A stretch of DNA of 64,000 nt from Acidimicrobiales bacterium. GTDB taxonomy: Bacteria > Actinomycetota > Acidimicrobiia > Acidimicrobiales > MedAcidi-G1. This document shows, in pieces, positions 15,299 to 40,791 of this stretch. Position 1 is the first letter of the stretch. Every line of letters starts with the position of its first letter. The position numbers and the translations under genes were made by a program. The stretch is taken from contig JAAZXY010000008.1 in NCBI GenBank assembly GCA_014239855.1, forward strand, positions 1 through 64,000, in the 5' to 3' direction. The notes below the pieces were generated by a model that saw nothing but the letters and a program-made list of their open reading frames with translations, did not search any database and was not told the origin of the DNA.

Positions 15299-15306
15299 CG
15301 GTCGAC

Positions 15307-17024: not shown

Positions 17025-17034
17025 GCTCTGACCC

Positions 17035-18018: not shown

Positions 18019-18029
18019 GGGTCGGAACG

Positions 18030-19298
18030 ATGGGCGCCAACCTGGATCTCTTCGACCGCGCCCGACGGGTGATTCCCGGTGGGGTCAACTCGCCGGTCCG
18101 GGCCTTCGGGTCGGTCGGTGGCACGCCGTACTTCGTGGACCGGGCCGAGGGCCCGTACCTGTGGGACGCCGAGGGCCGCCGGTACATCGACTACGTGCAG
18201 TCCTACGGCCCGGGCATCCTCGGCCACGCCCACCCGGCGGTGCTCGATGCCGTCACCCGGGCCGCCTCGGCGGGCACCTCCTACGGTGCGCCGACCGAAG
18301 CCGAAGTGGTTCTGGCCGAGATGGTGGTCGACCGGATCGCCGGGCTGGAATCGGTGCGGTTCGTCTCCTCGGGTACCGAGGCCACCATGTCGGCCATCCG
18401 CCTGGCCCGGGGAGCCACCGGACGACCGGGCATCGTGAAGTTCGCCGGCTGCTACCACGGCCATGCCGACGCCCTGCTGGCCGCCGGCGGCAGCGGGGTG
18501 GCCAATCAGGGTCTGTCGGGATGCGACGGCGTCACCGACGGCGCAGTGGCCGACACGATCGTCGCCCCGTACAACGTGGTGCCCACCCTCGATGACACCG
18601 TCGCCGCGGTGATCGTGGAACCGGTGGCCGCCAACATGGGCCTCGTCGCCCCGGCCGACGGGTTCCTCGAGGGCCTGCGGACGGCCTGCGACGAAGCGGG
18701 CGCTCTGCTCATCTTCGACGAGGTCATCACCGGCTTCCGGCTGGCTCGAGGTGGGGCCGCCGAGCGGTTCGGGGTGACCCCGGACCTGTGGTGCTTCGGC
18801 AAGGTCATCGGCGGCGGCCTCCCGGTCGGTGCCTTCGGTGGCCCATGGGACGTCATGGAACACCTCGCCCCGCTGGGCGGCGTCTACCAGGGCGGAACGC
18901 TCTCGGGGAACCCGTTGGCCATGGCGGCCGGACGCACCACCCTGGAACTGCTCGACGACGGGGCCTTCGACCAGTTGACCGCCACGGCGACCCGATTGGC
19001 CGATGGTCTGGCCTCCGCCTTCGCGTCGGCCGGCATGGCGTCGATCCTGCCCCGGGTGGGTTCCCTGCTGGGCCTGTTCTTCGGTGATCGTGCGCCCACG
19101 GACTTCGACGAGGCCAAGGTGCTGGCCGACAACGGCGTGTACCCGAAGGTGTTCCACGCGCTGCTGGACCGGGGCGTGGCCCTGGCTCCCGGTGCGTACG
19201 AGGCGTTGTTCCCGAGCCTCGCCCACGACGACGCGGTGGTCGACGAGACCATCGAGATCGCGGCCGACGCGGCCGCGGCCGTCGCCTCCGCTTCCTGA
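18030..19298 (+). CDS. hemL: Glutamate-1-semialdehyde 2,1-aminomutase
   Basis: FDRARRVIPGGVNSPVRAFGSVGGTPYFVDRAEGPYLWDAEGRRYIDYVQSYGP; LLIFDEVITGFR. Confidence 0.97.
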   Translation: MGANLDLFDRARRVIPGGVNSPVRAFGSVGGTPYFVDRAEGPYLWDAEGRRYIDYVQSYGPGILGHAHPAVLDAVTRAASAGTSYGAPTEAEVVLAEMVVDRIAGLESVRFVSSGTEATMSAIRLARGATGRPGIVKFAGCYHGHADALLAAGGSGVANQGLSGCDGVTDGAVADTIVAPYNVVPTLDDTVAAVIVEPVAANMGLVAPADGFLEGLRTACDEAGALLIFDEVITGFRLARGGAAERFGVTPDLWCFGKVIGGGLPVGAFGGPWDVMEHLAPLGGVYQGGTLSGNPLAMAAGRTTLELLDDGAFDQLTATATRLADGLASAFASAGMASILPRVGSLLGLFFGDRAPTDFDEAKVLADNGVYPKVFHALLDRGVALAPGAYEALFPSLAHDDAVVDETIEIAADAAAAVASAS

Positions 19299-23217: not shown

Positions 23218-24507
23218 TCAGGCGTCGACCAGGCGGTCGGGGACCAGGCGCACCACGCCGGCGATGGCCGCGTAGGCGGCCTCGGCGGCTCCCCGGTCCT
23301 CGTCGCGCATCAGGTTGGCCATGATCCGCAGCGCCCACTCCATGAGGGGCTGGGATCGCATCCCCACCCGGGTCAACTCACGGATGAGCGCCGGGTTGCC
23401 GATCACCTTGGAGAACAGCCGGGCCACCTTGAAGTACAGGCCGTACTCCTCGTCGAGCAGGTCGGGGTAGCGGGCCAGGATGGCGTCGTCGCCCCGGGCG
23501 GCGGCCTCGGCGATCAGGCCGGCAGCCATCCGTCCGGTCTCGTAGGCGTAGTCGATGCCCTCGCCGTTGAACGGATTGACCGAGCCGGCGGCATCTCCCA
23601 CCACCAGCCAGTTCGGTCCCGCCTTGGGGCCGACCGAACCGGCCATGGGGAGGCGGCCACCGGTCGGCGGGGCGATGGGTCGTGTCGGGTCGATCTGCCA
23701 GTGCTCGGGGAGCGTGCAGGCGAACTCCTCGAACAGGTGGCTGGTGTTGACCTGCTTGTAGTCCCGGAAGGTCGAGAGCAGGCCGATGCCCACGTTGATG
23801 GTGCCGTTGCCCACCGGGAAGATCCATCCGTAGCCGGGCATGGCGTTGCCCTCCCGGTCACGGACGTCCAGCGAGGATTCGATCCACGGGTCGTCGTGCA
23901 GCGGGCTCTCGAAGTAGCCGCGGATGGCCATTCCCATCGGGTAGGACCGGTCTCGCACGGTGCCCAGTGCCCGACCGAAGCGGGAGTTGGCGCCGTCGGC
24001 CACCACGACGTGGCGGGCCCGGATGGCCCGTTCGGTTCCGGTGGCCTTGTCCAGGACGACGGCGCCCCCGATGGCACCCGGTGCCGAACCGTCAGGCGGG
24101 TCGATGGGCCGGACGGCCTCGGTTCCCTGCAGCAGGGTCGCCCCGGCGGTGACCGCGTGTTCGGCCACGAAGGCGTCCAGGTCGCAGCGTCGAACCACGT
24201 ATCCGTAGGTCGGGTAGACGGAGTGGTCGGGCCACGGCATCTCGATGGTCCGGCCGTGGGCGATGGCCCGGAGACCGTCGAACCGGTGGTACCGCTCGAG
24301 AACCGGTCCGAGGCCCATCTCCTCGAGCTGGTGGACGGCCCTCGGCGTCAGGCCGTCACCGCACGTCTTGTCCCGGGGGAAGGTCTTGCGTTCGACGACC
24401 ACCACGTCGAGACCGTGGGACGCTGCCCAGTAGGCGGTGGCTGCACCAGCAGGCCCGCCACCGATGACCAACAGGTCGACCGGGGCGTCAGAAATGGGGT
24501 CGGTCAT
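23218..24507 (-). CDS. Geranylgeranyl reductase family FAD-dependent oxidoreductase
   Basis: DLLVIGGGPAGAATAYWAASHGLDVVVVERKTFPRDKTCGDGLTPRAV; GWIFPVGNGTINVGIG; GDAAGSVNPFNGEGIDYAYETGR. Confidence 0.92.
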   Translation of the reverse strand: MTDPISDAPVDLLVIGGGPAGAATAYWAASHGLDVVVVERKTFPRDKTCGDGLTPRAVHQLEEMGLGPVLERYHRFDGLRAIAHGRTIEMPWPDHSVYPTYGYVVRRCDLDAFVAEHAVTAGATLLQGTEAVRPIDPPDGSAPGAIGGAVVLDKATGTERAIRARHVVVADGANSRFGRALGTVRDRSYPMGMAIRGYFESPLHDDPWIESSLDVRDREGNAMPGYGWIFPVGNGTINVGIGLLSTFRDYKQVNTSHLFEEFACTLPEHWQIDPTRPIAPPTGGRLPMAGSVGPKAGPNWLVVGDAAGSVNPFNGEGIDYAYETGRMAAGLIAEAAARGDDAILARYPDLLDEEYGLYFKVARLFSKVIGNPALIRELTRVGMRSQPLMEWALRIMANLMRDEDRGAAEAAYAAIAGVVRLVPDRLVDA

Positions 24508-24570: not shown

Positions 24571-25317
24571 CTAGTGCCCGTCGTCCTCGTGGGCGACGGA
24601 GTCCAGGATGGCCTGGATCTCGGCTGTGGTCACCGTCGACGGATCGAGGTGGCCGTGCAGGTCCAGTTCGCCGTTGTGGACGGCGTGGTCGATGGCCTCG
24701 GCCAGCGCTGCGTCGTCGTCCGAACCCGACAGGCGGGCCCGTTCATGGAGCACCACGCCGATCAGTTCCTCGGTGGTGAGCACGTCGGCCCAGCCGGGCA
24801 TGCCACCCTCGACGACCCGGCCGCGGGCCGCGTCGCCGTACGGGTTGCCGAGGCCGAAGCCGTCGGAGCCCCTGGCCACCCATTCGATGTGGGCCGCAGC
24901 GGTCGGGAAGGTGGTCAGCACCTCACCGTCGGCCAGGGCGTGGCCGCTTCCGCCGGCGCCGGTGGCGCCGTGGCAGCTGGCGCAGCGGGCCTCGTAGACG
25001 TGCGCACCCTCGGCGAGGACGCCGGTGGCCTCCTGCGGGGGCCGCTCCAGCGTGCCCACGTACGAGATGGCCCAGATGGGGAGTAGCAGCAGCCCGCTGG
25101 TGGCCCACCACGGGATCTTCTTCCGGGCATTGGCCGCGGCCACGTAGGGCGCGACGGGGGCCGGCGGTGCCTCGACCACCGGTGCAGCGGGTGCCGCGGC
25201 GACCGGTGCGGCCGGGGCGGCCTCGGTCGGGGTGTCGGCTGCCGGGGCGTCGGCGCCGGTGGCCTTGGCCTTGGCGGCTGCGGCCCGCTTCAAAAGGTGT
25301 TCGGGGATATCGGTCAA
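24571..25317 (-). CDS. Membrane-anchored cytochrome c (single CXXCH)
   Basis: TM segment IPWWATSGLLLLPIWAISYV then ARCASCHGATG; N-terminal MTDIPEHLLKRAAAAKAKATG. Confidence 0.88.
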   Translation of the reverse strand: MTDIPEHLLKRAAAAKAKATGADAPAADTPTEAAPAAPVAAAPAAPVVEAPPAPVAPYVAAANARKKIPWWATSGLLLLPIWAISYVGTLERPPQEATGVLAEGAHVYEARCASCHGATGAGGSGHALADGEVLTTFPTAAAHIEWVARGSDGFGLGNPYGDAARGRVVEGGMPGWADVLTTEELIGVVLHERARLSGSDDDAALAEAIDHAVHNGELDLHGHLDPSTVTTAEIQAILDSVAHEDDGH

Positions 25318-25682: not shown

Positions 25683-26138
25683 ATGGTCGCGTTCGTGACA
25701 TCCATCATCGTGCTGCTCGTCCTTCTGGGCGGTTGCGACTGGTACCGGAAGCGCACGCCCGCCGACAAGGACTTCACGTGGGGCGAGGCGATGCTCTTCG
25801 CCACCTACGTCTTCTTCGTGCTCTGGTGGGTCTACGGCGTGGTGCCCCACCAGTGGTTGACCTGGGCGGACAGCGAGTTGAACTGGCGCCCCGATCGGTT
25901 CCTGGTCGGCCCTGAACTCCCGTGGACGGGAAACAAGGGCATTGTCGAGTGGGCCCTTCCCTTCACCATGACCTACCAGATCATCCGTGACCTGGTGGCC
26001 GTCGTCATCTACGGCATCGCCCTCGGTGGCAACGTCGTGATGTGGCGCCAGTGGCAGGAGCGCGGCAAGGTCGACGACACCCCGAAGCCCACCTCGGAAT
26101 ACGGCCGTCCGTTGATCCGAGAGGGGGCCGGATCATGA
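25683..26138 (+). CDS. Hypothetical membrane protein, first gene of the bc-complex operon
   Basis: 151 aa with three hydrophobic segments (VAFVTSIIVLLVLLGGC, MLFATYVFFVLWWVYGVVP, DLVAVVIYGIALGGNVVM); 4-bp overlap with the ferredoxin gene. Confidence 0.8.
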   Translation: MVAFVTSIIVLLVLLGGCDWYRKRTPADKDFTWGEAMLFATYVFFVLWWVYGVVPHQWLTWADSELNWRPDRFLVGPELPWTGNKGIVEWALPFTMTYQIIRDLVAVVIYGIALGGNVVMWRQWQERGKVDDTPKPTSEYGRPLIREGAGS

Positions 26139-26551
26139 GCGTCACCGACGCCAACCCCGAGCACCCGACGTTCGTCGACGACTACGTCCTGCGCGAGGTC
26201 GACGCGGACTGGATGACGACCAACAACCGGGTCAAGCAGTTCATCCACATCGACCAGTCCGAGTGCATCATGTGCGAGGGCTGCGTCGACATCTGCCCGT
26301 GGAAGTGCATCCACATGGTTTCGACCGATGCGGTGGCCGAGTCGGTGGGAACCGAGCAGCCGGGCGTCGACCCCAGCGACCACGTGATCTTCACCATCGA
26401 CGACGACGTGTGCACCCGCTGCGCCCTCTGCGTCGATCGGTGCCCGACCGGCGTGATCATCATGGGCAAGTGCACCGATGCGCCGGCCGAAGGCGATGCC
26501 CACCAGCGGACCAACACCCACGGGTACGGCTACGGAATGCGGCTGGGCTGA
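26135..26551 (+). CDS. 2x[4Fe-4S] ferredoxin-like protein
   Basis: CIMCEGCVDICPWKC and CTRCALCVDRCP. Confidence 0.92.
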   Translation: MSVTDANPEHPTFVDDYVLREVDADWMTTNNRVKQFIHIDQSECIMCEGCVDICPWKCIHMVSTDAVAESVGTEQPGVDPSDHVIFTIDDDVCTRCALCVDRCPTGVIIMGKCTDAPAEGDAHQRTNTHGYGYGMRLG

Positions 26552-26597
26552 GTGGACATGAACGCACGTACGAAGGTTTCACAGGAGAGCGGACACC

Positions 26598-27380
26598 GTG
26601 GCTGACGACAAGAAGCCGGCTGGTCAGGCGCTGCAGGAGCAGCTCGGCCAACTGACCGAACAGGTCCAGGGCTCTCAGGCCTGGAGCTCGATCTTCCGAC
26701 CGGGCTCGATCTTCCGGAAGGGCTACAACGACAGCCCCCGGAACCGGTCCTACGTGATCATGAACAGCGTGCTGTACCACCTCCACCCGGTGAAGGTGAA
26801 GCGCCACGCGGTGAAGGTCAGCTACACCCTCTGCCTGGGTGGGCTGTCGTTCTTCCTGTTCATCCTGTTGACGGTGACCGGCATCTTCCTGATGTTCTTC
26901 TACCGACCGACCGCCGCCCAGGCGTGGGATGACATCCAGACCCTGCAGACCGCGGTGGGCTTCGGACTGTTGGTCCGCAACATGCACCGGTGGGCGGCCC
27001 ACCTCATGGTGCTGTCGGTGTTCCTGCACATGGCCCGCGTCTTCTATCACGGTGCCTACAAGCCGCCCCGGGAGTTCAACTGGGTCATCGGCGTGATGCT
27101 CCTGCAGTTCACCCTGCTCCTCTCGTTCACCGGTTACCTCCTCCCGTGGGACCAGTTGGCCCTCTGGGCGGTGACGGTGGGAACGAACATGATGGGCTTC
27201 ACCCCTGTCTTCGGTGAACAGGTCCGGTTCGTGCTGCTCGGCGGCGTCGAGATCGGAACCGACACCCTTCTTCGCTGGTACACCCTGCACGTCCTCATGC
27301 TTCCGTTCGTGGTGGTCATATTCATGGCCATCCACTTCTGGCGGGTGCGTAAGGACGGCGGCATCTCGGGCCCGCTCTAA
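26598..27380 (+). CDS. Cytochrome b N-terminal half (b6-like) of a bc complex
   Basis: CLGGLSFFLFILLTVTGIFLMFFYRPT, MHRWAAHLMVLSVFLHMARVFYHGAYKPPREFNWVIGV; GTG start. Confidence 0.94.
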   Translation: MADDKKPAGQALQEQLGQLTEQVQGSQAWSSIFRPGSIFRKGYNDSPRNRSYVIMNSVLYHLHPVKVKRHAVKVSYTLCLGGLSFFLFILLTVTGIFLMFFYRPTAAQAWDDIQTLQTAVGFGLLVRNMHRWAAHLMVLSVFLHMARVFYHGAYKPPREFNWVIGVMLLQFTLLLSFTGYLLPWDQLALWAVTVGTNMMGFTPVFGEQVRFVLLGGVEIGTDTLLRWYTLHVLMLPFVVVIFMAIHFWRVRKDGGISGPL

Positions 27381-27407
27381 GCCGGCCCGTACGCGACAGG
27401 ACGACAG

Positions 27408-28136
27408 ATGACCGAGATCCCCGAACACCTCAGGAAGCGGGCCGAAGCCGCCAAGGCCAAGGCCCAGGGCGAGGCCGCACCGTCGGCCGGCGATGCTGCT
27501 CCCGCGGCCGCGGCATCGGGCGACGACAAGATCCCCAGCCATCTGCTGGACCGTGGCACCGCGGCGGCCGACCAGCCGGCTCCCTCTGCCGGCTCCGCCG
27601 GTGGTGGACTGGCCGCCCCCGCAGGCAGCAGTGGTCCCGACGGGCACAACCAGCGTCTGCTGACCGTCGTCAAGTCCGGCTCCATTCAGGACACCAAGGC
27701 CACCCCGCAGGACAAGGTCCACGTGTGGCCGCACCTCCTGCTGGCCGAGTTCCTCGCTGCGCTGGCCGTCACCCTGTTCACGCTGCTGTTCTCGATCTTC
27801 GTGAACGCCCCGCTACTCGAACTGGCCGACTTCAACAAGACGCCGAACCCGTCCAAGGCACCGTGGTACTTCCTGGGCCTGCAGGAACTGCTCACCATGT
27901 TCCACCCGATGGTGGCCGGCGTGACCATTCCCGGCATCGGCCTCATCGTGCTGGTCATGGCGCCCTACATGGACAAGAACCCCTCCAAGCGTCCCGAAGA
28001 CCGCAAGTTCGCCATCTCGTTGATGACCGTGCACCTCATGTTCTGGTCGGTGCTGGTGATGATCGGGTCCTTCTTCCGGGGCCCGGGCTTCAACTTCATC
28101 TTCCCGTGGAACTCCGGCCTCTTCTTCGAGCTGTGA
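27408..28136 (+). CDS. Cytochrome b C-terminal half (subunit IV-like) with extended N-terminus
   Basis: KVHVWPHLLLAEFLAALAVTLFTLLFSIFVNAPL, NPSKAPWYFLGLQELLTMFHPMVAGVTIPG. Confidence 0.93.
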   Translation: MTEIPEHLRKRAEAAKAKAQGEAAPSAGDAAPAAAASGDDKIPSHLLDRGTAAADQPAPSAGSAGGGLAAPAGSSGPDGHNQRLLTVVKSGSIQDTKATPQDKVHVWPHLLLAEFLAALAVTLFTLLFSIFVNAPLLELADFNKTPNPSKAPWYFLGLQELLTMFHPMVAGVTIPGIGLIVLVMAPYMDKNPSKRPEDRKFAISLMTVHLMFWSVLVMIGSFFRGPGFNFIFPWNSGLFFEL

Positions 28137-28192
28137 TCGCCATGGAACCCTTCACCCCGTCCGCCATCCCGATGAACCACAGGAGCTGACCC

Positions 28193-29083
28193 GTGGGCGT
28201 CGTCATTGCCGTCATCCTTCTCCTCGTCCTGGCCGTGGCTGTTCTGGCCGGGGCCTCCCGTCGCCGCGACCGCGGTGCGGCCGGCTTGTCCCGTGAGGCA
28301 CGCCGCCGGGACGTGACCAACCCCCTGCTGGCCAACTCCCAGCCGGGTGGTTCCGACACCGAGTCGGCCCCGTCCGGTCGCGACGTCGAGGCGGCTGCGG
28401 CCGCCGCACGATCCGGGTCCGATCTGGTGGCCGTGGAGTCCGCCCCGGTCGAGCCGTTCGTGGCTCCCGACCCGGGCGCCGTCGGCGTGAGCCGACGCCA
28501 GTTCTTCAACCGGAGCCTCGTGGGCATGATGGGCTTCGGTCTCTCGGGCTTCGGTGGCGCCAGCATCGCCTTCCTGTGGCCCCAGGGCGTGAGCGGTTTC
28601 GGCTCCAAGATCAAGGTGGGCAACGTCGTCGAGCTGTTGGCCGACATCACCGCCAACAACGGCTTCCTGTACAAGCCCGAGGGTCGGATGTGGATCACCG
28701 CCTACCCGAACGGCGCCGTCGAGAAGGCCAGAGCCACGTACTCGTCTCCCGAGCTGGCCGGCATGACGGCCGGCGTGGACGGCGGTTTCGACGCCGGCAT
28801 CATCGCCCTCTACCAGAAGTGCCCCCATCTGGGCTGCCGGGTCCCGAACTGCGTGTCGTCGCAGTGGTTCGAGTGCCCGTGCCACGGTTCGCAGTACAAC
28901 CAGGTCGGTGAGAAGCGAGGCGGCCCGGCTCCCCGGGGCATGGATCGCTTCGCCATGTCGGTGACCGACGGTGTTCTCACCGTGGATACCGGCACCATTG
29001 TCCAGGGACCCCCGATTGGTACGAACACCACCGGCCAGGAGGCCGAGGGTCCGAACTGCATCGGACAGGCCGACGGCCACTAG
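28193..29083 (+). CDS. Rieske [2Fe-2S] protein of the bc complex
   Basis: CPHLGCRVPNCVSSQWFECPCHGSQYNQ; Tat-like SRRQFFNRS before a hydrophobic helix; extra N-terminal TM. Confidence 0.95.
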   Translation: MGVVIAVILLLVLAVAVLAGASRRRDRGAAGLSREARRRDVTNPLLANSQPGGSDTESAPSGRDVEAAAAAARSGSDLVAVESAPVEPFVAPDPGAVGVSRRQFFNRSLVGMMGFGLSGFGGASIAFLWPQGVSGFGSKIKVGNVVELLADITANNGFLYKPEGRMWITAYPNGAVEKARATYSSPELAGMTAGVDGGFDAGIIALYQKCPHLGCRVPNCVSSQWFECPCHGSQYNQVGEKRGGPAPRGMDRFAMSVTDGVLTVDTGTIVQGPPIGTNTTGQEAEGPNCIGQADGH

Positions 29084-29116
29084 TCCGTCGAGACGCACGA
29101 GATCGCAGAGACACCG

Positions 29117-30313
29117 ATGAGCACACTTCTCCTCGCAAGCACCCAACGGACCATCGGCTGGGTCCTCGCGTCCGTGGTCCTGGTGGGTATGGGCGTCTAC
29201 CTGTTGTTCAGCTTCCGCATCGGCAAGCGCGAGGTCGGGTCCGAGATCGACCTGGCTCCCAACCGGGTCCGGCACGCTGACGACGACGAGCTTGAGACCC
29301 GCTTCCTGGACCGCAACCTGGCCTGGTCGCTGGTCCTGCTCACCGTGGTCTCCATGATCCTTCCCATCTACTGGCTCATGGAGCCGGCCCGTCAGGACAA
29401 CGCGGCCTACGGATGGGTCAAGCGGTTCGAGGGGCGTGGAGCGAAGACCTTCGAAGAGGCGTGTGTGAGCTGCCACGGTCCGGGCGGCGTGGGTGGTGTC
29501 GCCCAGTTCACGCTCACCGATGCCAATGGTGGTTTCGTGGCCCAGGTCGAGTGGAAGGCCCCGGCGCTCACCACGGTCCTGAGCCGGTTCGACGAATCCG
29601 AGGTCCGTCGGATTCTCGATTACGGCCGACCCGGTACGCCGATGCCCGCTTGGGGACTGCCCGGCGGCGGACCGTTGACCTCCCAGCAGGTCCACCAGCT
29701 CGTCGTCTACCTGCGTTCCGTCCAGTTGACGCCCGAGGAAGCGGCGGCCGAGGTGACCAGCGGTCTGCAGGCCGGGGCACGGGGCATCGTCACCTCCCGG
29801 GATCCGGGCCTGACCGACGCCCATGACATCGACGCGGCCATCGAGGCCTGGCTCGCCCAGGCGGCCGACCCGTCCAGCAGCGACTACGCGGCCTACGGAG
29901 AACTGTTGTTCAACAACCCGGCTGCCCAGGGCGCCAACAGTTGCGCCCGCTGCCACACGCCCGGTTTCTCCTACGGCGCATCCAGCGATGAGGCCGCCGC
30001 CGAGCTCATGGCCGAGTGGCCCCGTCTGGCCGAGGCCGGTGTGCTCACCGGCTACCGCCCGGGAGCCGGTCACGTCGGACCTGCGCTGGTGGGCATCGAG
30101 ACCCACTTCCCGACGGCCGGCGGTCACGAGGACTTCGTCCGAACCGGCTCGGAGGTGGGCTCCGGCTACGGAAACGCCCGCCCCGGCACCGGAGCCATGC
30201 CCGGCTTCGGTGGCCGTTCCGATGACCTGAATGTGATCGGGACCGTCGTGCGGTCCCGCATCCTGACCCCTGAACAGATCGCGGCGATCGTGGCCTACGA
30301 GAGGAGCCTCTGA
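29117..30313 (+). CDS. Membrane-bound diheme cytochrome c
   Basis: Two N-terminal TM segments; CVSCHG and CARCHT. Confidence 0.92.
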   Translation: MSTLLLASTQRTIGWVLASVVLVGMGVYLLFSFRIGKREVGSEIDLAPNRVRHADDDELETRFLDRNLAWSLVLLTVVSMILPIYWLMEPARQDNAAYGWVKRFEGRGAKTFEEACVSCHGPGGVGGVAQFTLTDANGGFVAQVEWKAPALTTVLSRFDESEVRRILDYGRPGTPMPAWGLPGGGPLTSQQVHQLVVYLRSVQLTPEEAAAEVTSGLQAGARGIVTSRDPGLTDAHDIDAAIEAWLAQAADPSSSDYAAYGELLFNNPAAQGANSCARCHTPGFSYGASSDEAAAELMAEWPRLAEAGVLTGYRPGAGHVGPALVGIETHFPTAGGHEDFVRTGSEVGSGYGNARPGTGAMPGFGGRSDDLNVIGTVVRSRILTPEQIAAIVAYERSL

Positions 30314-31323
30314 TGGACACCCTGGTCACGATGGCCGGGTTGGCCTGGGATCCCGAGATCCGGGGCATCCTCACCGTCGCCACCGGCTTCGCGGTCCTCA
30401 TGGGGTCGATCTGGCTGATCGTCGTCACCAACTCCGGTATCCGGCTGGCCACGCTGATGTCGGCCGCCGCCCTCATGGGTTGGATGGTCATCCTGGGCAG
30501 CGCCTGGTGGATGTACGGCTCCGGTTGGAAGGGCGACGCCCCGAGCTGGAAGACCGTGGACATCAACGTGGGTGATCTGGGGGCCAGCGGCCTCCTCTAC
30601 GCCCGTGAGCTGCCCAACCCGGACGAGATCCCGTCGGCCTACGAGCTGGTCGTGGCCTCCGGCGACCTCGTGGCCGTGGCTGAGTTCGACACGCTCCCCA
30701 GTGCCGTCGACAATCCGGACCTCCCGGCTGAGTCGCTCGATGCGCTGCGAGCCGATCGGCAGTTGCGAAACGAGACCATCACCCGATCCGAGCTGGCTGC
30801 CGTGGCCCGCAACGTGACCGATGCCGCCGGCCTCCGCTCCGTCGGGCCATGGCGCCTCCTGTCCACCAGCGAGGCCGGTGACGCCCAGGCTCAGGCGTCG
30901 GCCGACGTACTGGCCCACCCTGATCTCGGGTTCGCCAGCTCGGCTGACTACAAGCTGCTCGACTCCTACACCATGGGTGGCAAGCCCTCGCTGACCGACG
31001 ACCCGAACCGCTGGGACCGGATCAGCCACTGGATCACCAGTTCGGCTCGACTCACCCACCCGACCCGCTACACGGTGGTGCAGCTCCAGGGGGTGCTCCA
31101 CCAGGACGTTCCCGCCGGCGTGGCCCCGCCCCGTCCGGTGGTCGATCCCGGTGAGCCGGTCGTGTCGGTCGTGATGATCCGAGACCTCGGATGGGTCCGC
31201 CTGCGGCCCGCACTGGTCACCATCGGTTCGTTGCTGGTCTTCCTGGCCCTCTGCTACTGGCTCCACGTGCGTGACAAGGAGCTCATGGAGCGGCGCAGGG
31301 AGTTCGAGACCAGTACCGCCTGA
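30313..31323 (+). CDS. Hypothetical membrane protein, last gene of the bc-complex operon
   Basis: 336 aa, two N-terminal and one C-terminal TM segments; start overlaps the cytochrome c stop. Confidence 0.8.
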   Translation: MDTLVTMAGLAWDPEIRGILTVATGFAVLMGSIWLIVVTNSGIRLATLMSAAALMGWMVILGSAWWMYGSGWKGDAPSWKTVDINVGDLGASGLLYARELPNPDEIPSAYELVVASGDLVAVAEFDTLPSAVDNPDLPAESLDALRADRQLRNETITRSELAAVARNVTDAAGLRSVGPWRLLSTSEAGDAQAQASADVLAHPDLGFASSADYKLLDSYTMGGKPSLTDDPNRWDRISHWITSSARLTHPTRYTVVQLQGVLHQDVPAGVAPPRPVVDPGEPVVSVVMIRDLGWVRLRPALVTIGSLLVFLALCYWLHVRDKELMERRREFETSTA

Positions 31324-31370
31324 CCTCGTGACCAATTCCGTGGTCATGGGTGGGACCGGGGACGAGTGAC

Positions 31371-31859
31371 GTGCTCGGCCAGTACCTGCCCATCATCGTC
31401 CTCCTGATCCTGGCGTTCCTGTTCGCCGCCCTCAGCTTCGTCGCGTCGCGCCTTCTGGCTCCCCGCAGCCCGAACGACCGCAAGGCCGCGCCCTACGAGT
31501 GCGGGATCATCCCGGGTCGCGAGACTCCGGAACGCTTCCCGGTGCGCTTCTTCCTCGTGGCGATGATCTTCATCGTCTTCGACATCGAGATCATCTTCTT
31601 CTACCCGTGGGCCATTGCCCATGACGGCCTGGGCCTGTTCGGCCTGGTGTCGGTCCTCATCTTCTCGGCCGCCGTGTTCGAGTCGTTCGTGTACCTGATC
31701 GGAAACGGCGCCCTCGAGTGGGGTCCGGTACGCCGGGTCCGCCAGGCCGTGTCACCGCATCGCACCTCGTCGTCCACCATCCGGCGGGCCGGCGTACGTG
31801 AGGTCGGTCTGGAAGGTCGGGTGCCGATGGGTTCCGACGGGCGAGAGCAGGCCGCCTGA
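31371..31859 (+). CDS. nuoA: NADH-quinone oxidoreductase subunit A (copy 1)
   Basis: [42 protein letters not shown]; start uncertain (GTG 31350 or 31371). Confidence 0.94.
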
Positions 31860-32467
31860 TGGTGCATCTTCCCGGTATCGGCGAAACCTCCGACGTGATG
31901 TCGAAGGGCCTCGAGGGCCTGGAGCACAACTTCGTCACGGCCAAGGTGGAGGACCTCGTCAAGTGGTCGCGGGCCCGGAGCTGCTGGCCGGCCACCTTCG
32001 GCCTGGCGTGCTGCGCCATCGAGATGATGGCCACCGGTGCCGCCCACTACGACCTGGCCCGCTACGGCATGGAGGTTTTCCGGGCCTCGCCTCGCCAGGC
32101 CGACCTGATGATCGTGGCCGGCCGGGTGTCCCAGAAGATGGCCCCCATCCTGCGTCAGATCTACGACCAGATGATGGAACCCAAGTGGGTCATCTCCATG
32201 GGCGTGTGTGCGTCCAGTGGCGGGATGTTCAACAACTACGCCATCGTCCAGGGCGTCGACCAGGTCGTCCCGGTGGACGTGTACGCCCCCGGTTGCCCGC
32301 CGGGTCCCGAGACCCTGATGCACGCCATCCTGACCCTGCACGACAACATCCAGAGCGGTGAACTGACCCGACGTCGCGAGGCCAATGACGGTGGCGCGGC
32401 CATCCAGGTCGACGTGCCGCCGGCTCCCGCCGAGACCGTGCAGCCCGTGGAACTGGGCACCCGATGA
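31859..32467 (+). CDS. nuoB: NADH-quinone oxidoreductase subunit B (copy 1)
   Basis: [53 protein letters not shown]. Confidence 0.97.
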
Positions 32468-32952
32468 GCGACGGTCAGCTGCTCCACGGCGTGCCGGTGG
32501 TCGAGGCCACCGGGCAGGTCGTGGCGCACCCGACGGTCGACCAGTGGCTGGACACCGTGGCGGCCCTGAAGGCCGACGGCTTCTGCATGGCCATCGACGT
32601 GACCGCCGTGGACTACTCGGCCCATCCCGGCCGTACCGACCTGCCCGAGGGCGTGACGCCCGAGCGCTTCGAGGTGGTGGCCGCCTTCATCGATCACGCC
32701 GGCGGTCGACGGGTCCGCCTGCGGGCCCAGGTGCCCGAGGCCGACCCCGTGGTGCCGTCGTTGTTCGACCTGTTCCCGGGCACCGAGGCCATGGAGCGCG
32801 AGGCCTGGGACCTGGTGGGCGTGGCCTTCGACGGCCATCCCGACCACACCCGGATCCTGATGCCCGAGGACTGGGAGGGCCACCCGCTTCGTCGCGACGT
32901 GGCCATTGGCCGTATCCCGGTCCAGTTCAAGGATGCACCGGCCGCCCGATGA
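32464..32952 (+). CDS. nuoC: NADH-quinone oxidoreductase subunit C (copy 1)
   Basis: [51 protein letters not shown]. Confidence 0.96.
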
Positions 32953-34316
32953 CCGACGTGACCAGTTCCCTGACCGGCCCCCCGGTCGGCGAGCCAACCG
33001 CTGACACCCATGAAGAGGCTCCGGCCCCTGATCTGGGTTCGGCCGAACGCGTCCTGCGCCGCGACGATTCGAGCGCCGTGCTCCGGCTGAGTGAGGCCGA
33101 GGCCGCCGTCCTGGCCGGTCACCCCGATGATCCGCCCACCGGCGATGCCGCCGACCAGCGGATGATCCTCAACATGGGCCCGTCGCACCCGTCCACCCAC
33201 GGCGTGCTGCGCCTCATGCTGGAGATGGAGGGCGAGACGATCCTGCGGACCAAGCCGGTCATCGGCTACCTCCACACCGGTATGGAGAAGACCGCCGAGG
33301 ACCTCACCTACCTGCAGGGTCCGACCAACGTCACCCGCATGGACTACGCCGCCCCGCTGTTCTCCGAGTTGGCCTTCTCGCTGGCCGTCGAACAGCTGTT
33401 GGGCATCGACGTGCCGCCCCGGGCCACGTGGATCCGCATGCTCATGTGCGAGCTGAACCGGGCCGCCTCCCACCTGCTGTTCCAGGCCACCAACGGCATG
33501 GACCTGGGCGCCGTGTCCATGATGATCTACGGCTGGCGCGAGCGCGAAGAGGTACTGCGGTTCTTCGAGAAGGTCACCGGCCTCCGGATGAACCACAACT
33601 ACATCCGTCCGGGAGGCGTCGCCGCCGATCTTCCCGATGGCTGGCAGGACGACCTCCGTCGGCTCCTCGACCTGATCCCGCCCCGCCTCGACGAGTACGA
33701 CACCCTGCTCACCGGGCAGCCCATCTTCCGCGAGCGGCTCCAGGGCGTGGGCGTCATGACGCCCGCCGAGGCCCTCGCCCTGTCGGCCACCGGACCCATC
33801 CTGCGGTCCACCGGTTACGCCTGGGACCTGCGTCGCGACCAGCCCTACCTGGCCTACGACGAGGTGGAGTTCGACGTCATCGTGGGCACCCACGGCGACT
33901 CGTTCGACCGCTACGCCATCCGTCTCAACGAGATCCGGGAGTCACTGCGGATCGTCGAACAGATCATCGACCTGATGCCCGACGGTGACTACCGGACCCA
34001 GGACAAGAAGGTCACCCCGCCGCCGCGTGCCCGCATCGACGAGTCGATGGAGGCCCTCATCCACCACTTCAAGATCTTCACCGAGGGTTTCCACGTGCCG
34101 GAGGGCGAGACGTACGCCGCCGTGGAGTCGCCTCGTGGCGAACTGGGTTGCTACCTGGTGTCCGACGGTGGGCCGAAGCCCTACCGGATGCACATCCGGG
34201 GTCCCAGCTTCGTGAACCTGCAGACCCTGCCGCACCTGATGGAAGGTGGCCTGATCGCCGACGGCGTGGCCGTCGTGTCGTCGGTCGACCCCATCATGGG
34301 GGAGGTCGACCGATGA
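32949..34316 (+). CDS. nuoD: NADH-quinone oxidoreductase subunit D (copy 1)
   Basis: LNMGPSHPSTHGVLRLMLEMEGETILRTKPVIGYLHTGMEK; C-terminal DPIMGEVDR. Confidence 0.97.
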   Translation: MTDVTSSLTGPPVGEPTADTHEEAPAPDLGSAERVLRRDDSSAVLRLSEAEAAVLAGHPDDPPTGDAADQRMILNMGPSHPSTHGVLRLMLEMEGETILRTKPVIGYLHTGMEKTAEDLTYLQGPTNVTRMDYAAPLFSELAFSLAVEQLLGIDVPPRATWIRMLMCELNRAASHLLFQATNGMDLGAVSMMIYGWREREEVLRFFEKVTGLRMNHNYIRPGGVAADLPDGWQDDLRRLLDLIPPRLDEYDTLLTGQPIFRERLQGVGVMTPAEALALSATGPILRSTGYAWDLRRDQPYLAYDEVEFDVIVGTHGDSFDRYAIRLNEIRESLRIVEQIIDLMPDGDYRTQDKKVTPPPRARIDESMEALIHHFKIFTEGFHVPEGETYAAVESPRGELGCYLVSDGGPKPYRMHIRGPSFVNLQTLPHLMEGGLIADGVAVVSSVDPIMGEVDR

Positions 34317-34972
34317 GCTGGTTCGACGCCACCCACGAGCGGATCGCCCGTGAGATCCTGGCCCGCTACCCGAAGCCGAAGTCGGCTGTCATCCCGTTGC
34401 TCCACCTCGCCCAGGAGCAGGAGGGTTGGGTCACCCCCGAAGCCATGGTCGAGATCGCCGATCTGACCGGCACCACGGCCGCCGAGGTGCTGGGTACCGG
34501 CAGCTTCTACGAGATGTTCAAGTTCCATCCGGTGGGCCGGTACGTGGTCAACGTCTGCACCAACGTGTCCTGCCAGTTGCTGGGCGGCGAGGAACTCCTG
34601 GACCATGCCGAGGCGACCCTCGGGGTGAGGGCCGGTGGCACCACCGACGACGGCCTGTTCACCGTCGAGGACGTGGAGTGCGTGGCCGCCTGCACCGAGG
34701 CGCCGTGCTTCACCGTGAACTACCGCTACTTCCACCGGGCCGATACCGACATCTTCGACGAGGTGGTGGCCGACCTCCGGGCCGGACGCAGCCCGTTGGC
34801 CCGGGGAGCGGCAGGCGACGACGGTGAGATCCCCGACCACGGCACGCTGGGCCGGGTCCGTCAGCAGGTGCCCGCGGATCGTCGGGCCGGCGTGGTCCCC
34901 CCCGAGGACGTCACCGGGCCGCCGGCCTGGATGCCAGTTGCCGTGGACGCCGGAGAGGGGGCGGCATCGTGA
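34313..34972 (+). CDS. nuoE: NADH-quinone oxidoreductase subunit E
   Basis: VVNVCTNVSCQLLGG, VEDVECVAACTEAPCFTVN. Confidence 0.96.
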   Translation: MSWFDATHERIAREILARYPKPKSAVIPLLHLAQEQEGWVTPEAMVEIADLTGTTAAEVLGTGSFYEMFKFHPVGRYVVNVCTNVSCQLLGGEELLDHAEATLGVRAGGTTDDGLFTVEDVECVAACTEAPCFTVNYRYFHRADTDIFDEVVADLRAGRSPLARGAAGDDGEIPDHGTLGRVRQQVPADRRAGVVPPEDVTGPPAWMPVAVDAGEGAAS

Positions 34973-36384
34973 CCGGCGCCTACGTCTCCCATGCCGCGGG
35001 CTACGTCGACAACGGCGGACCGAAGGTCGTCACGTCCCGCTTTGCCCACGAGGACTCCTTCACCCTGGAACGCTCTCTGGCCACCGGTGGCTACGAGGGA
35101 CTGCGGGCCGCGCTGGCCATGACCCCCGACGCCGTGCACGGCCAGGTCCGCGAGGCCACCCTGCTGGGCCGAGGCGGTGCCGGATTCCCGGCCGGCGTCA
35201 AGTGGGGCTTCTGCCCCGAGGGCGTGTGGCCCCGGTACCTGGTGGTCAACGGTGACGAGAGCGAGCCCGGCACCTACAAGGACCGCCTGCTCATGGAGCG
35301 CGATCCGCACCAGCTCATCGAGGGCTGCCTGATCGCGTGTTACGCCCTCGGCCTGTCGCAGTGCTTCCTGTACGTCCGGGGAGAGATGGCTCTGGCCCAG
35401 GAACGAATCGCCACGGCACTCAACGAGGCCTACGCCGCCGGTTACGTGGGCCGCAACGTGCTGGGCAGCGACCTCTCGGTCGACATCACCCTGCACTGGG
35501 GGGCCGGCGCCTACATCGTGGGCGAGGAGACGGCCCTCATCGAGAGCCTCGAGGGCAACCGGGGCATGCCCCGACTCAAGCCGCCGTACTTCCCGGCGGC
35601 CATCGGGCTGTACGGCCAGCCGACCATCGTCAACAACGTGGAGACGCTGGCCAACGTGCCGTGGATCATGAGCAACGGTGCGGCGGCCTACCGGGAGATG
35701 GGGTCGGAGACCTCGCCCGGCACCCGCCTGTTCGCCGTCTCGGGCCACGTGAACCGACCCGGCGTCTACGAGGTCGAACAGGGCGTGACCACGTTCCGTG
35801 ACCTGTTCTACGGCGAGGCGTTCTGTCAGGGCATCCGCGACGGCCACGAGCTGAAGATGTTCATCCCGGGCGGCGGATCCGCCCCCTGGTTCTTCACCGA
35901 GCACCTCGATCTGCCGTTGGAGGCCAAGGAGGTCGGCGCCGCCGGATCGATGCTGGGATCGGGCGCCATCATCGTGATGGACGAGACCACCGACGCCGTG
36001 AAGGCGTGCCACCGGATGGTGCGGTTCTTCGCCCGTGAGTCGTGTGGCAAGTGCTCACCGTGTCGGGAGGGGACCACCTGGGAGGAGAAGATCCTGGCCC
36101 GGATCCTCGACGGCCACGGCCGCCCGTCCGACATCGACCTGCTGCTCGACGTGGGTGACAACATCAGCCCCGGGCCGTACCCGGTGGCCGCCCATCCCGA
36201 CGAGGGGCTCGACGCCGTGCCGTTCCCGCCCCGCCAGACGACCATCTGTCCGTTGGGCCCTTCCTCGGTGGCGCCCATCACCTCGACCATCCGGCGGTTC
36301 CGCCACGAGTTCGAGGCCCGCATCACCCGCGGTGACGGCATTCCCGTGTCGGCGGCCGCCCCCGGTGGGGAGGTCGGCGCATGA
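34969..36384 (+). CDS. nuoF: NADH-quinone oxidoreductase subunit F
   Basis: LGRGGAGFPAGVKWGF, VVNGDESEPGTYKDR, ESCGKCSPCREGT. Confidence 0.97.
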   Translation: MTGAYVSHAAGYVDNGGPKVVTSRFAHEDSFTLERSLATGGYEGLRAALAMTPDAVHGQVREATLLGRGGAGFPAGVKWGFCPEGVWPRYLVVNGDESEPGTYKDRLLMERDPHQLIEGCLIACYALGLSQCFLYVRGEMALAQERIATALNEAYAAGYVGRNVLGSDLSVDITLHWGAGAYIVGEETALIESLEGNRGMPRLKPPYFPAAIGLYGQPTIVNNVETLANVPWIMSNGAAAYREMGSETSPGTRLFAVSGHVNRPGVYEVEQGVTTFRDLFYGEAFCQGIRDGHELKMFIPGGGSAPWFFTEHLDLPLEAKEVGAAGSMLGSGAIIVMDETTDAVKACHRMVRFFARESCGKCSPCREGTTWEEKILARILDGHGRPSDIDLLLDVGDNISPGPYPVAAHPDEGLDAVPFPPRQTTICPLGPSSVAPITSTIRRFRHEFEARITRGDGIPVSAAAPGGEVGA

Positions 36385-38900
36385 CCGAAGAGGTGGAGAC
36401 CCCCGTCGTTGAGATACCCGTCGTTGAGATACAGGTTGATGGTGAGACGGTGGCTGCCCGGCCGGGCGAGTTGCTGATCGACGCCTGCGAACGCAACGGC
36501 ACCTACATCCCCCGGTTCTGCCACCACACCCGCATGAAGCCGGTCGGGATGTGCCGCATGTGCCTGGTCGAGGTGGACACCGGTCGGGGCCCCGCCCTCC
36601 AGCCGTCCTGCATGCTCGAGTGCACGCCCGGCATGAGCGTCGACACCGAGTCGGACCGCACCCGCAAGGCCCAGGACGGGGTGCTGGAGTTCCTGCTCGT
36701 CAACCACCCGCTGGACTGCCCGGTCTGCGACAAGGGCGGCGAGTGCCCCCTGCAGGACCAGACCATGGCCTTCGGGCCCGGTGAGAGCCGGTTCGTCGAG
36801 GAGAAGCGGCACTTCGAGAAGCCGATCCCCGTCAACTCCAACGTCCATCTGGACCGGGAACGGTGCATCCTGTGCGACCGCTGCACCCGGTTCGCCGGCG
36901 AGGTGGCCGGTGACCAGCTCATCCACTTCATGGACCGGGGCGGCCAGACGCAGGTCAACACCTTCCCCGAGCAGCCCTTCTCCTCGTACTTCAGCGGCAA
37001 CACCGTGCAGGTCTGCCCGGTGGGTGCGTTGACCGCCGCCCCGTACCGCTTCAAGGCCCGACCGTGGGACCTCGAGGAGGTGGAGTCGACCAGCACGCTG
37101 GACAGCGTGGGCAGTCGCATCGCTGTGCAGTCCTCCCGTGACCGGGTGCTCCGGTTCCAGGGTGTCGACGCGGATGCCGTCAACTGGGGCTGGCTGTCGG
37201 ACAAGGAACGTTTCGTCTTCGAGGCCTACGACCACGAGGACCGCCTGGCGTCGCCGATGCTGCGGGGCGATGCCCTGGGCAACCGGACGCCCGACGGCCC
37301 TTCGTTGGTGGCTGCGCCGTGGAGCGAGGCGCTCGGCGTCGCCGCGTCGGCCCTGGCGGCCGCACCGGCCGCCCGGATCGCCGTGCTGGGCGGCGCCCGC
37401 ATGACCAACGAGTCGCAGTACGCGTGGGCCAAGTTGGCCAAGGGCGTGCTGGGCACCGACCACGTGGATGCCCAGTTGGGCGACGGCCTGCCCGCCGAGG
37501 TGGTTCTCGGGCTGCCGCGGGCCACCATCGACCGGGCGTGCACGCCCGGCGGGGTCATCGTGCTCCTGGGTCCCGACCCCAAGGAGGAGCTGGGGGCGTT
37601 GTACCTGCGGCTCCGACACGCCGTGGTCCACGACGGGGCCACCCTGATCGAGCTCACGCCGCGGCGCACCGGTCTGAGTGCCCACGCCGCCCACTCGTTG
37701 CGGGTCACCCCGGGTGACGCGGCGGGCGTGGTGGCCGCCATGTTCGGCTCCGGATCACCGGCTGGTGTGGCTGGCATCCCGGTCGACCAGTTGGCCGCCG
37801 CCGGCGCCACGCTGGCTGCCGCGGTGGCTGAAGGCTCACCGGTCACCGTGCTGCTGGGTCGCCCCTCGCTGGCCGAGTCGGCCGGCCCGGTGGTCGACGG
37901 CGCGCTGGCCCTGCACGACCACCTGCCCACCGCCACCTTCCTGTCGCTGCTCCGTCGGGGCAACGTCCACGGGGCCATGGACATGGGTCTGGCTCCCGGA
38001 CTCCTTCCCGGTCGTGCGTCGCTGGCCGACGCCGGGCGGGTCGCCGACGTGTGGCCGACCGTGCCCGCGGCCACCGGCCACGACGCCCTGGGGATTCTCA
38101 CCGCGGCGGCCGCCGGGGAGATCGACGTTCTCGTCCTGCTGGGTGCCGATCTGCTGGCCGACGTGCCCGACCGCCAGCTGGCCGAACAGGCCCTGGCCGG
38201 CGCCCGGACCGTGGTGGCCGTCGACCTGTTCGGCACCGACACGGTGGCCCGGGCCGACGTGGTCCTGCCCGCCGTGGCCTCCACCGAACTGGACGGCACC
38301 TTCACCAACCTGGAGGGCCGGGTCAGCGTGGTGGCCCGCAAGGTGACCTCGCCGGGGACGTCCCGACCCGACTGGGCGATCGCCGTCGAACTGGCCGAAC
38401 GCCTGGGTGCCGACCTGGGCTTCATGTCGGTCGACGACGTGCTGGCCGAACTGGCCGCCGTGTCGCCGCTGCATGCCGATCTGACACCGGAAACCCTGGC
38501 CGGGGCGACCCGTGAGGGAATCCTGATCGAGGGTTCAACCGAGGTCGCCCGACCGGCGCCGACCAGCGTGCCGGGCCGTGACGGCTACGGCCTCCGCCTG
38601 GTGGTCGACCGGTGCATGTACGACGCCGGGGTCCTGGTGGCCCACAGCGCCTCGTTGGCCGGCCTGGCCCCGGGGACGCGTGCAGGCGTCGAGCCCACCG
38701 ACCTGGCCCGTCACGGGATCGACGAGGGTGAGGTCGTGGACCTCATCAGCGCCCGGGGCACCATCCAGGTGGTGGTGGCCGCCGACGCCGGCGTGGCCCG
38801 GGGGACCGTGCACCTACGGGCCAACCAGCCCGACCTGGCCGTCAACGCCCTGATCGACGCCTCGGCGCCGGTCACCGAGGTCCGGGTGGGACGACGGTGA
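36381..38900 (+). CDS. nuoG: NADH-quinone oxidoreductase subunit G
   Basis: CERNGTYIPRFCHHTRMKPVGMCRMCLVEV, CDKGGECPLQDQ, CILCDRCTRF; molybdopterin-oxidoreductase-like C-terminus. Confidence 0.96.
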   Translation: MTEEVETPVVEIPVVEIQVDGETVAARPGELLIDACERNGTYIPRFCHHTRMKPVGMCRMCLVEVDTGRGPALQPSCMLECTPGMSVDTESDRTRKAQDGVLEFLLVNHPLDCPVCDKGGECPLQDQTMAFGPGESRFVEEKRHFEKPIPVNSNVHLDRERCILCDRCTRFAGEVAGDQLIHFMDRGGQTQVNTFPEQPFSSYFSGNTVQVCPVGALTAAPYRFKARPWDLEEVESTSTLDSVGSRIAVQSSRDRVLRFQGVDADAVNWGWLSDKERFVFEAYDHEDRLASPMLRGDALGNRTPDGPSLVAAPWSEALGVAASALAAAPAARIAVLGGARMTNESQYAWAKLAKGVLGTDHVDAQLGDGLPAEVVLGLPRATIDRACTPGGVIVLLGPDPKEELGALYLRLRHAVVHDGATLIELTPRRTGLSAHAAHSLRVTPGDAAGVVAAMFGSGSPAGVAGIPVDQLAAAGATLAAAVAEGSPVTVLLGRPSLAESAGPVVDGALALHDHLPTATFLSLLRRGNVHGAMDMGLAPGLLPGRASLADAGRVADVWPTVPAATGHDALGILTAAAAGEIDVLVLLGADLLADVPDRQLAEQALAGARTVVAVDLFGTDTVARADVVLPAVASTELDGTFTNLEGRVSVVARKVTSPGTSRPDWAIAVELAERLGADLGFMSVDDVLAELAAVSPLHADLTPETLAGATREGILIEGSTEVARPAPTSVPGRDGYGLRLVVDRCMYDAGVLVAHSASLAGLAPGTRAGVEPTDLARHGIDEGEVVDLISARGTIQVVVAADAGVARGTVHLRANQPDLAVNALIDASAPVTEVRVGRR
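36402..36431. repeat. 15-bp perfect tandem duplication near the start of nuoG
   Basis: CCCGTCGTTGAGATA twice, encoding PVVEI-PVVEI. Confidence 0.95.
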
Positions 38901-40174
38901 CCACCGTGAACACCGTCGTGGGCCCCGTCATGGGCCCCGTCATGGACACGGCCGTGCTGGCCCTGGACCCGCTGCTGAGTGGTGACCTGGACCTGGGCAT
39001 CGTGGGCATCGTCATCCTGAAGGCCGTGGTGGCCTTCACCCTGCTGCTCGTCTCGGTCATGCTCATGATCTGGTTCGAGCGCAAGCTGGTGGCCGACATG
39101 CACAACCGGATCGGTCCGGCGGTGGCCGGTCCGTTCGGCATCCTCCAGACGCTGGCCGACGGCATCAAGTTGTTCTTCAAGGAGGACCTCATCCCGGATC
39201 GGGCCGACCGGGTGGTCTTCAAGCTGGCGCCCTACCTGTCCCTGGTCCCGGCCTTCCTGGTGTTCGCCATCGTCCCCATTGGTGGCGACTTCTCGTCGGG
39301 CGACGGCACCGTCACGTGGTTCGGCAAGAGCACCTACCTGCAGGTGGCCGACCCGCCGGTGGGCATCCTGTTCTTCCTGGCGCTCTCGTCGATCGCCGTC
39401 TACGGCGTGATGCTGGCCGGCTGGTCGTCGGGATCGAAGTACCCGCTGCTCGGTTCGGTGCGTGCTTCGGCCCAGATGATCAGTTACGAGGCGGCCCTCG
39501 GCCTGGCCATCGCCGCGGTCTTCCTGACCTCAGGTTCGCTGTCCACGCACGACATCGTGGCCAGCCAGGTCGACGGCAGTTGGAACGTGCTGGCCACCGG
39601 CGTCGTGCCGTTCATCGTGTTCCTGGTGGCCGGGACCGCCGAGTTGAACCGTCCGCCGTTCGACCTGGTGGAGGCCGAGCAGGAACTGGTCGGCGGGTTC
39701 CACACCGAGTACAGCTCGTTGCGGTTCGCCCTCTTCTTCCTGGCCGAGTTCATGAACGTGATCACCATGTCGGCCATCGCCGTCACCCTGTTCCTGGGTG
39801 GCCCGGCCGGCCCGATCCTGACCGACACCCTGGGCTGGGTGTGGCCGGTCTTCTGGTTCAGCGTGAAGGTGTTCGCCTTCCTGTTCTGCTTCGTGTGGCT
39901 GCGGGCCACCCTGCCCCGTCTTCGCTACGACCAGCTCATGGACCTCGGGTGGAAGGTGCTCATCCCGGTGGCCCTCGGATGGTTCCTGCTGATCGGGGCC
40001 ATGAACGTGGCCGGTGACCAGGGTTGGTCGCTGGTGCCCGTGGTGCTGGGCGGCCTGGTCGTGATGGCCGGCGGTGCGGCACTGCTCATGGGCGCGGTGG
40101 CCAAGGCCCGGGCCGAGCGCCTGGCCGAGGATTCCCCCGAACGGGACGACGTGCCGACGGGAGGGTCCGCCTGA
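38897..40174 (+). CDS. nuoH: NADH-quinone oxidoreductase subunit H (copy 1)
   Basis: [66 protein letters not shown]. Confidence 0.97.
38920..38943. repeat. 12-bp perfect tandem duplication near the start of nuoH (copy 1)
   Basis: GGGCCCCGTCAT twice, encoding GPVM-GPVM. Confidence 0.95.
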
Positions 40175-40791
40175 TGGGTTACTTCAAGGGCTTCGGCGTC
40201 ACCTTCCGCAAGATGTTCGAGAAGCGGGTCACCACCCCGTACCCCGAGAAAAAGCGTCCCAAGCCGGCCCGTCTGCACGGTCGTCACGTGCTGAACCGGT
40301 ACGAGGACGGCATGGAGAAGTGCATCGGCTGCGAGCTGTGCGCCGGGGTCTGTCCGGCGAAGTGCATCTACGTGCGCGGTGCCGACAACCCGCCCGACGA
40401 GCCGGTGTCGCCCGGTGAGCGGTACGGCTTCATCTACGAGATCAACTATCTGCGCTGCATCCACTGCGACCTGTGCGTGGAGGCCTGCCCGACCGAGGCC
40501 ATCACCGAGTCCAAGCTGTTCGAGTTCTCGTTCACCAACCGGGCCGACGCCATCTACACCAAGGAGGAACTGGTGGTCGACGCCACCACGGGCCGTCCCC
40601 AGCACCTCCCGTGGGAGGACTGGCGTCCGGGCGACGATGCCATGACCTCGGGTTGGATGCGGGCCACGTCATCCAGTGGCGATGCCTCGTACAGCGGCCG
40701 GGTCTCCTGGTCGGGCGAGTTGGGCCACGGCGTACGGGCCGCCGAGGTCGGGCAGTCCGACGCGGACTCCGACGGGTCGGGTGACCACTGA
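40174..40791 (+). CDS. nuoI: NADH-quinone oxidoreductase subunit I (copy 1)
   Basis: [15 protein letters not shown] and [16 protein letters not shown]. Confidence 0.96.

Follow-up and report, generated by a model that had tools for sequence, protein, structure and literature searches.

A heme-ci-type split cytochrome b operon with a constant ferredoxin gene in Acidimicrobiia and other Actinomycetota

The stretch of DNA analysed here, referred to as the window, comprises 64,000 nucleotides of contig JAAZXY010000008.1 (assembly GCA_014239855.1) from an Acidimicrobiales bacterium, a metagenome-assembled genome (MAG) of 2.35 Mb and 83% completeness whose nearest relatives are Candidatus Microthrix-like MAGs within Acidimicrobiia. 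At 25683–31323 it carries seven co-oriented, tightly packed genes on the + strand, which, judged from the encoded proteins, are a gene set for a heme-ci-type, split-b quinol:cytochrome c reductase together with a ferredoxin gene as a constant member. We propose, with a probability of slightly below one half (0.48), that the product is a menaquinol:cytochrome c reductase of b6f architecture, in which the ferredoxin would be a cytoplasmic partner that probably donates to heme ci/Qi. Searches of the open-access literature found no account of such an operon.

Organization of the operon

The initial annotation had placed a seven-gene bc operon in this region, and all seven genes were located at these coordinates in the same order. 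The first gene (TM1, 25683–26138) encodes a protein of 151 aa with three predicted transmembrane (TM) helices, for which Pfam and family models give no match. Its stop is overlapped by 4 nt by the start of the gene for a soluble, acidic 2×[4Fe-4S] ferredoxin of 138 aa (Fdx, 26135–26551), which matches the Pfam dicluster ferredoxin model. The two halves of cytochrome b follow, namely a b6-like N-half (26598–27380; Pfam Cytochrome_B, E = 3.5e-45) and a subunit IV-like C-half (27408–28136; Pfam Cytochrom_B_C, E = 1e-6). Downstream of them lies the gene for a Rieske [2Fe-2S] protein (28193–29083; Pfam, E = 4e-9), whose CPH...CPCH motif represents the CxH...CxxH signature, as in b6f-type Rieske/cytochrome b complexes. 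The next gene encodes a membrane-anchored class I diheme cytochrome c (29117–30313), recognized by Pfam and bearing CxxCH motifs at residues 116 and 276. The last gene (TM2, 30313–31323) encodes a protein with an N-terminal TM hairpin, an extracytoplasmic domain and a C-terminal TM segment, again with no match among family models.

Type of cytochrome b

The cytochrome b of the operon is split, with the four heme-b histidines (H130, H144, H231 and H246) in the N-half and a separate gene for the C-half. Among PDB structures, the N-half is matched best by b6 chains, and Cys79 aligns to b6 Cys35, the covalent ligand of heme ci. This cysteine is present in 50 of the 50 members of the Fdx-type cytochromes b that were checked, four of them from operons without Fdx, and heme ci itself is predicted from the cysteine. 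Fused QcrB lacks Cys79, as do most of the other split cytochromes b sampled in the phylum; a few of the latter do have it. In the C-half the Qo motif reads SKAPWYF where PEWY would be expected; PWY is retained and the acidic residue is replaced. The spacing of 15 between the histidines of the second pair was considered as a b6-specific mark and dropped, since it is the same in QcrB. The N-half also carries a basic N-terminal extension of ~50 residues (11 basic versus 5 acidic). The idea that this extension is an Fdx-specific docking segment found no support, the extension being equally conserved in operons without Fdx.

In a maximum-likelihood tree of 70 rows, obtained by a quick search with SH-aLRT supports only and with long branches elsewhere that leave the nearest outgroup uncertain, the Fdx-type sequences fell together with a support of 91 alone and of 96 when two heme-ci-less relatives were included, and QcrB formed a separate group with a support of 98. 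The tree and the family scores bear out the distinction that had been drawn from the window alone, between this split cytochrome b and the fused QcrB of well-studied Actinomycetota. Fused QcrB was not found in the genome of the window, an 83% complete MAG, where the only match to NF050120 (1.7e-31) comes from the split gene. Many genomes outside Acidimicrobiia carry the operon and fused QcrB together; within the order of the window, families tend toward either the operon or QcrB rather than both, with exceptions.

A second cytochrome b was observed in genome G305 (locus L170), which has lost Fdx. It is of a sister type, with an HLHP motif and a glycine instead of the heme-ci cysteine, and is related to a cytochrome b on an Aureibacter plasmid.

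Ferredoxin and membrane proteins

Fdx has two CxxCxxCxxxCP motifs with eight cysteines, and its model matches the bacterial ferredoxin fold. It contains no TM segment and is therefore read as a protein of the n-side, that is, the cytoplasm. Both full 4Fe-4S motifs are invariant across all classes sampled, and a ninth cysteine (CPWKC in the window, CPWxC in general) is kept in at least 90% across classes. The protein is acidic (23 D+E versus 9 K+R) and has conserved N- and C-terminal extensions. Its mean column identity within Acidimicrobiia is 84%, and the conservation includes segments outside the cluster motifs, as would be expected for a dedicated partner. Fdx was modelled by AlphaFold2 (AF2) at medium confidence, with a predicted local distance difference test (pLDDT) score of 71 and a predicted template modelling (pTM) score of 0.64; the model matches polyferredoxin and NuoI/NdhI-type folds, and FwdF and Nfn-type polyferredoxins are among its best PDB matches.

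Neither TM1 nor TM2 has sequence or fold relatives in the family, profile and fold searches. The AF2 model of TM1 (pLDDT 88) consists of three long helices (residues 2–24, 33–64 and 98–128) with no fold match in PDB, a weak match to ETV6 chains being a chance match of 14 residues. The C-terminus of TM1 is predicted to be cytoplasmic and ends in a conserved S-x-Y-G-R-P-L tail. An aromatic peptide in this tail, either SxYGRPL or GGYK/R, occurs in essentially all operons with Fdx; of the six operons without Fdx described below, three retain the tail, one has an altered form of it, and two, from sister lineages, have lost it. This pattern suggests that the TM1 tail may have a role in the docking of Fdx.

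Distribution of the operon

The sequence searches covered Actinomycetota, mostly through MAGs, and the arrangement may reach beyond the phylum. One contig scan gave 80 loci, nearly all of them from MAGs labelled Acidimicrobiia or Actinomycetota, with an identical gene order wherever the length of the contig allowed it to be read. The order TM1-Fdx-bN-bC-Rieske-cytochrome c-TM2 is likewise kept, as far as the contigs allow, in 40 fetched loci, most of which come from distant families. Chance is excluded as the source of the arrangement, since the order recurs in ~80 Acidimicrobiia loci and in distant families of Actinomycetota. In an even sample of the phylum, the Fdx profile found matches in 114 of 397 genomes, a few of these being weak matches to long reading frames. 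No relatives of Fdx were found on the viral contigs or plasmids searched. The operon is general in Acidimicrobiia except for some families and is widespread in other classes of Actinomycetota, so that the rarity implied by the initial annotation does not hold.

Among 222 operons from several classes in which cytochrome b could be read, Fdx stands directly upstream of cytochrome b and after TM1 in 216. The other six (L142, L143, L144, L145, L195 and L279) have no Fdx, and TM1 adjoins cytochrome b in all of them.

Two records deserve separate mention. A MAG labelled Acidobacteria (SM_70_13; L035) carries the operon and falls among Acidimicrobiia, with 92% identity in the cytochrome b N-half; the record label is probably wrong. 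Genome G043 has two copies of the operon ferredoxin (L128 and L129), one Acidimicrobiia-like and one from a different lineage; the MAG may be chimeric, or a transfer may have taken place.

Proposed electron transfer and its alternatives

We propose that the operon encodes a menaquinol:cytochrome c oxidoreductase made of split cytochrome b, Rieske protein, diheme cytochrome c and heme ci, with menaquinone as the presumed quinone. TM1 and TM2 would be regular parts of the complex, and Fdx presumably a member too. Fdx may dock on the cytoplasmic side of the complex, with the basic N-terminus of cytochrome b and the tail of TM1 as its probable neighbours, and could exchange electrons with the heme ci/Qi site, where heme ci would be exposed to the n-side as it is in b6f. 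The likely direction would be from reduced ferredoxin, supplied for example by 2-oxoacid:ferredoxin oxidoreductase, to menaquinone, and the bc complex would work beside an 11-subunit complex I in a ferredoxin-linked respiratory chain. A route from ferredoxin to heme cn/ci has been proposed in b6f for cyclic electron flow (PMC5683061, PMC9342900). As for the supply of reduced ferredoxin, 2-oxoacid:ferredoxin oxidoreductase is reported to replace 2-oxoglutarate dehydrogenase in one lineage of Acidimicrobiia (PMC12008989); the enzyme is common both in genomes with the Fdx-bc operon and in those without it, and does not separate the two.

What is the partner of Fdx, the bc complex or complex I? 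The initial annotation had suggested that the ferredoxin could donate to either. That Fdx belongs to the bc operon is now well founded, and in every class sampled it keeps a fixed position there, which speaks for the bc complex as the partner; the conserved position does not by itself settle the choice. The bc partner is further favoured by the finding that adjacency to complex I is confined to Acidimicrobiia, where complex I directly follows the operon, whereas Fdx stays in the bc operon across classes, and by the acidic character of Fdx against the basic N-terminus of cytochrome b.

Several observations weigh against a direct transfer from Fdx to heme ci. The six operons that lost Fdx retain the remaining genes, and Cys79 is present in all four of them that were checked, from which it follows that the core reaction can do without Fdx. 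Complexes that lack this ferredoxin may also have heme ci, which hence does not require it as a partner. The degeneration of the TM1 tail in operons without Fdx amounts to two or three cases, of which two are sisters. A partner in complex I would account equally well for the co-occurrence of the operon with the 11-subunit type, and the entry of ferredoxin electrons at Qi is energetically less profitable than their entry through the 11-subunit complex I.

It is this last point for which we keep the first alternative, according to which Fdx is a dedicated carrier to the 11-subunit complex I that lacks the NADH module, co-expressed with the bc complex because the three complexes would make up one ferredoxin-linked chain, and making no direct contact with the bc complex. 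The electron donor of such complexes is an acknowledged open question (PMC11238625). NuoD types were distinguished by the PF00346 score, with 150–310 bits taken as the 11-subunit type and >330 as canonical, a split read from the score gap. The 11-subunit type was found in 76 of 81 genomes with the Fdx operon versus 22 of 61 without the operon, and within the order of the window in 19 of 19 versus 0 of 11; the genomes had been picked by whether they carry Fdx or QcrB, ahead of any look at NuoD, but they are related, so that the Fisher values are descriptive only. Operon and 11-subunit-type NuoD even vary together inside one family (G375 versus G383). Where Fdx and this NuoD share a contig, the median distance is 38 kb, and it is ≤60 kb in 29 of 35 genomes. 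Because the operon both co-occurs and co-localises with the 11-subunit complex I, the alternative stays in consideration. On the other hand, the Fdx gene sits in the bc operon, and not in that of complex I, in every class sampled; five genomes with Fdx have no NuoD of the 11-subunit type (some of them incomplete MAGs), 22 genomes have the 11-subunit type without such a ferredoxin, and the co-occurrence is confounded by shared ancestry. Moreover, four of the five Fdx-less genomes tested retain the 11-subunit-type NuoD; since the bc core is kept there as well, Fdx appears to be accessory to either enzyme and not a condition for it. All in all, a role confined to complex I seems unlikely to us.

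Second, Fdx might serve in assembly or structure, for example in the insertion of Fe-S clusters or heme or as a redox sensor of assembly, and carry no respiratory flux. The six losses out of 222 with the complex kept would fit such a role, and so would the extra conserved cysteine of CPWxC, which goes beyond the need of two clusters. The invariance of both 4Fe-4S motifs over the classes sampled points instead to electron transfer, and Rieske proteins elsewhere, to our knowledge, mature without such a factor, which makes this role quite improbable. Least probable of all is that Fdx acts as an electron acceptor at the n-side of the bc complex, being reduced from menaquinol by bifurcation or reverse flow for biosynthesis: its presumed position is that of the NAD(P) oxidoreductase module on the n-side for which reduction has been proposed in the anammox bacterium Kuenenia (PMC12954380), and its fold matches FwdF and Nfn-type polyferredoxins, the homologues named for that module, but electron transfer from menaquinol to ferredoxin is steeply uphill, and the presence of 2-oxoacid:ferredoxin oxidoreductase in most sampled hosts (see also PMC12008989) makes it likely that reduced ferredoxin is supplied already.

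Returning to Fdx as the cytoplasmic partner of the bc complex, a bolder form of the proposal would give respiratory complex III a ferredoxin port of its own. A ferredoxin:menaquinone reductase activity, anchored genetically, would then reside at heme ci; it would be coupled to an 11-subunit complex I and would be ancestral in deep Actinomycetota. Taken as a whole this form is speculative, and we regard it as rather doubtful.

Neighbouring genes

The 11-subunit complex I named as a neighbour in the initial annotation does exist in the window, with another cluster lying between it and the operon. This intervening cluster (31350–47231, +) is of the canonical type and is read as 14-subunit, with NuoD at 33501–34313 and genes of the sizes of NuoE, NuoF and NuoG; its subunits were named from position and homology and tested against Pfam in part only. 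The second cluster (~47341–58033, +) is of the 11-subunit type and lacks NuoEFG. NuoB, C, D, H, I, J, K, L, M and N were identified or matched in it, and NuoA is assigned from its position.

On the other side, a monoheme cytochrome c gene (24571–25317, –) is divergent from the operon; this gene lies upstream of the operon in most of the 80 scanned loci and is a neighbour in most loci of Acidimicrobiia. Two copies of the peptide IPEHLxKR lie in the N-terminal extension of the C-half of cytochrome b (27417 and 27531, +), and one copy, IPEHLLKR, at the N-terminus of this cytochrome c (25308, –). The sharing of the peptide between the two proteins is present in other Acidimicrobiia loci and absent from the loci of distant classes examined. 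Further out and also divergent to the operon, the gene at 23218–24507 (–) encodes a MenJ-like menaquinone/geranylgeranyl reductase, which scores 352 bits where the NF045655 cut-off is 700; such a gene lies near the operon in about half of the 80 loci. About 6 kb upstream of the operon, 14039–19226 holds what we take to be heme biosynthesis genes (the hemA/hemB region), and relatives of the presumed hemB-like gene are also near the operon in several distant families.

Significance and comparison with known systems

The operon in deep-branching actinobacteria suggests a way for ferredoxin electrons into, or out of, respiration at complex III. Photosynthesis research has yet to settle whether ferredoxin can feed electrons into b6f-type complexes via heme ci (PMC5683061, PMC9342900). 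With a ferredoxin gene inside a heme-ci bc operon, and with natural relatives without Fdx as controls, both this question and that of the complex I donor become testable in heterotrophic bacteria. If the proposed transfer is true, the complex would do outside photosynthesis what the long-sought ferredoxin:quinone reductase does in cyclic electron flow. In addition, much of Actinomycetota does not rely, or not solely, on the textbook fused QcrCAB.

QcrCAB, the bcc part of the bcc-aa3 supercomplex, is found in the same phylum and is likewise a quinol:cytochrome c reductase whose cytochrome c is diheme. It differs from the gene set described here in its fused cytochrome b, in having neither the heme-ci cysteine nor a ferredoxin, and in its separate branch of the tree.

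The ExtP/ExtQ proteins of selenite/tellurite reduction in NCBIfam are resembled in the N-half, which scores 304 bits against the ExtP (NF040969) cut-off of 290, whereas the C-half reaches 52 bits against the ExtQ cut-off of 150. Since the ExtP model passes in one control genome too, the name carries little information; the seven-gene operon contains no further ext genes. An identity as ExtPQ was rejected on the context and the ExtQ score.

A precedent for an Fe-S module at the n-side of such a core is given by the Rieske/cytochrome b complexes of anammox bacteria, which have an n-side [4Fe-4S]/FAD module and a proposed electron direction opposite to the one that we favour (PMC12954380). The Kuenenia complexes Kuste4569–4574 and Kustd1480–1485 share with the operon a b6f-type core with heme cN and a predicted cytoplasmic Fe-S module encoded in the same gene cluster (PMC12954380); the large FAD/NAD(P) oxidoreductase module and the multiheme cytochromes c are found in theirs. 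An interface heme of the anammox type is not claimed here, as no histidine could be placed at the equivalent position in the operon proteins.

The b6f complex of cyanobacteria and chloroplasts shares the split cytochrome b and the heme-ci cysteine at the aligned position (b6 Cys35), and an input from ferredoxin or FNR through heme cn/ci has been proposed there (PMC5683061, PMC9342900). In contrast to b6f, the operon has no cytochrome f, has APWY in place of PEWY, includes the extra TM1 and TM2 as well as a ferredoxin gene, and belongs to a respiratory host. With a diheme class I cytochrome c instead of cytochrome f, the complex would work like a b6f but is not a b6f.

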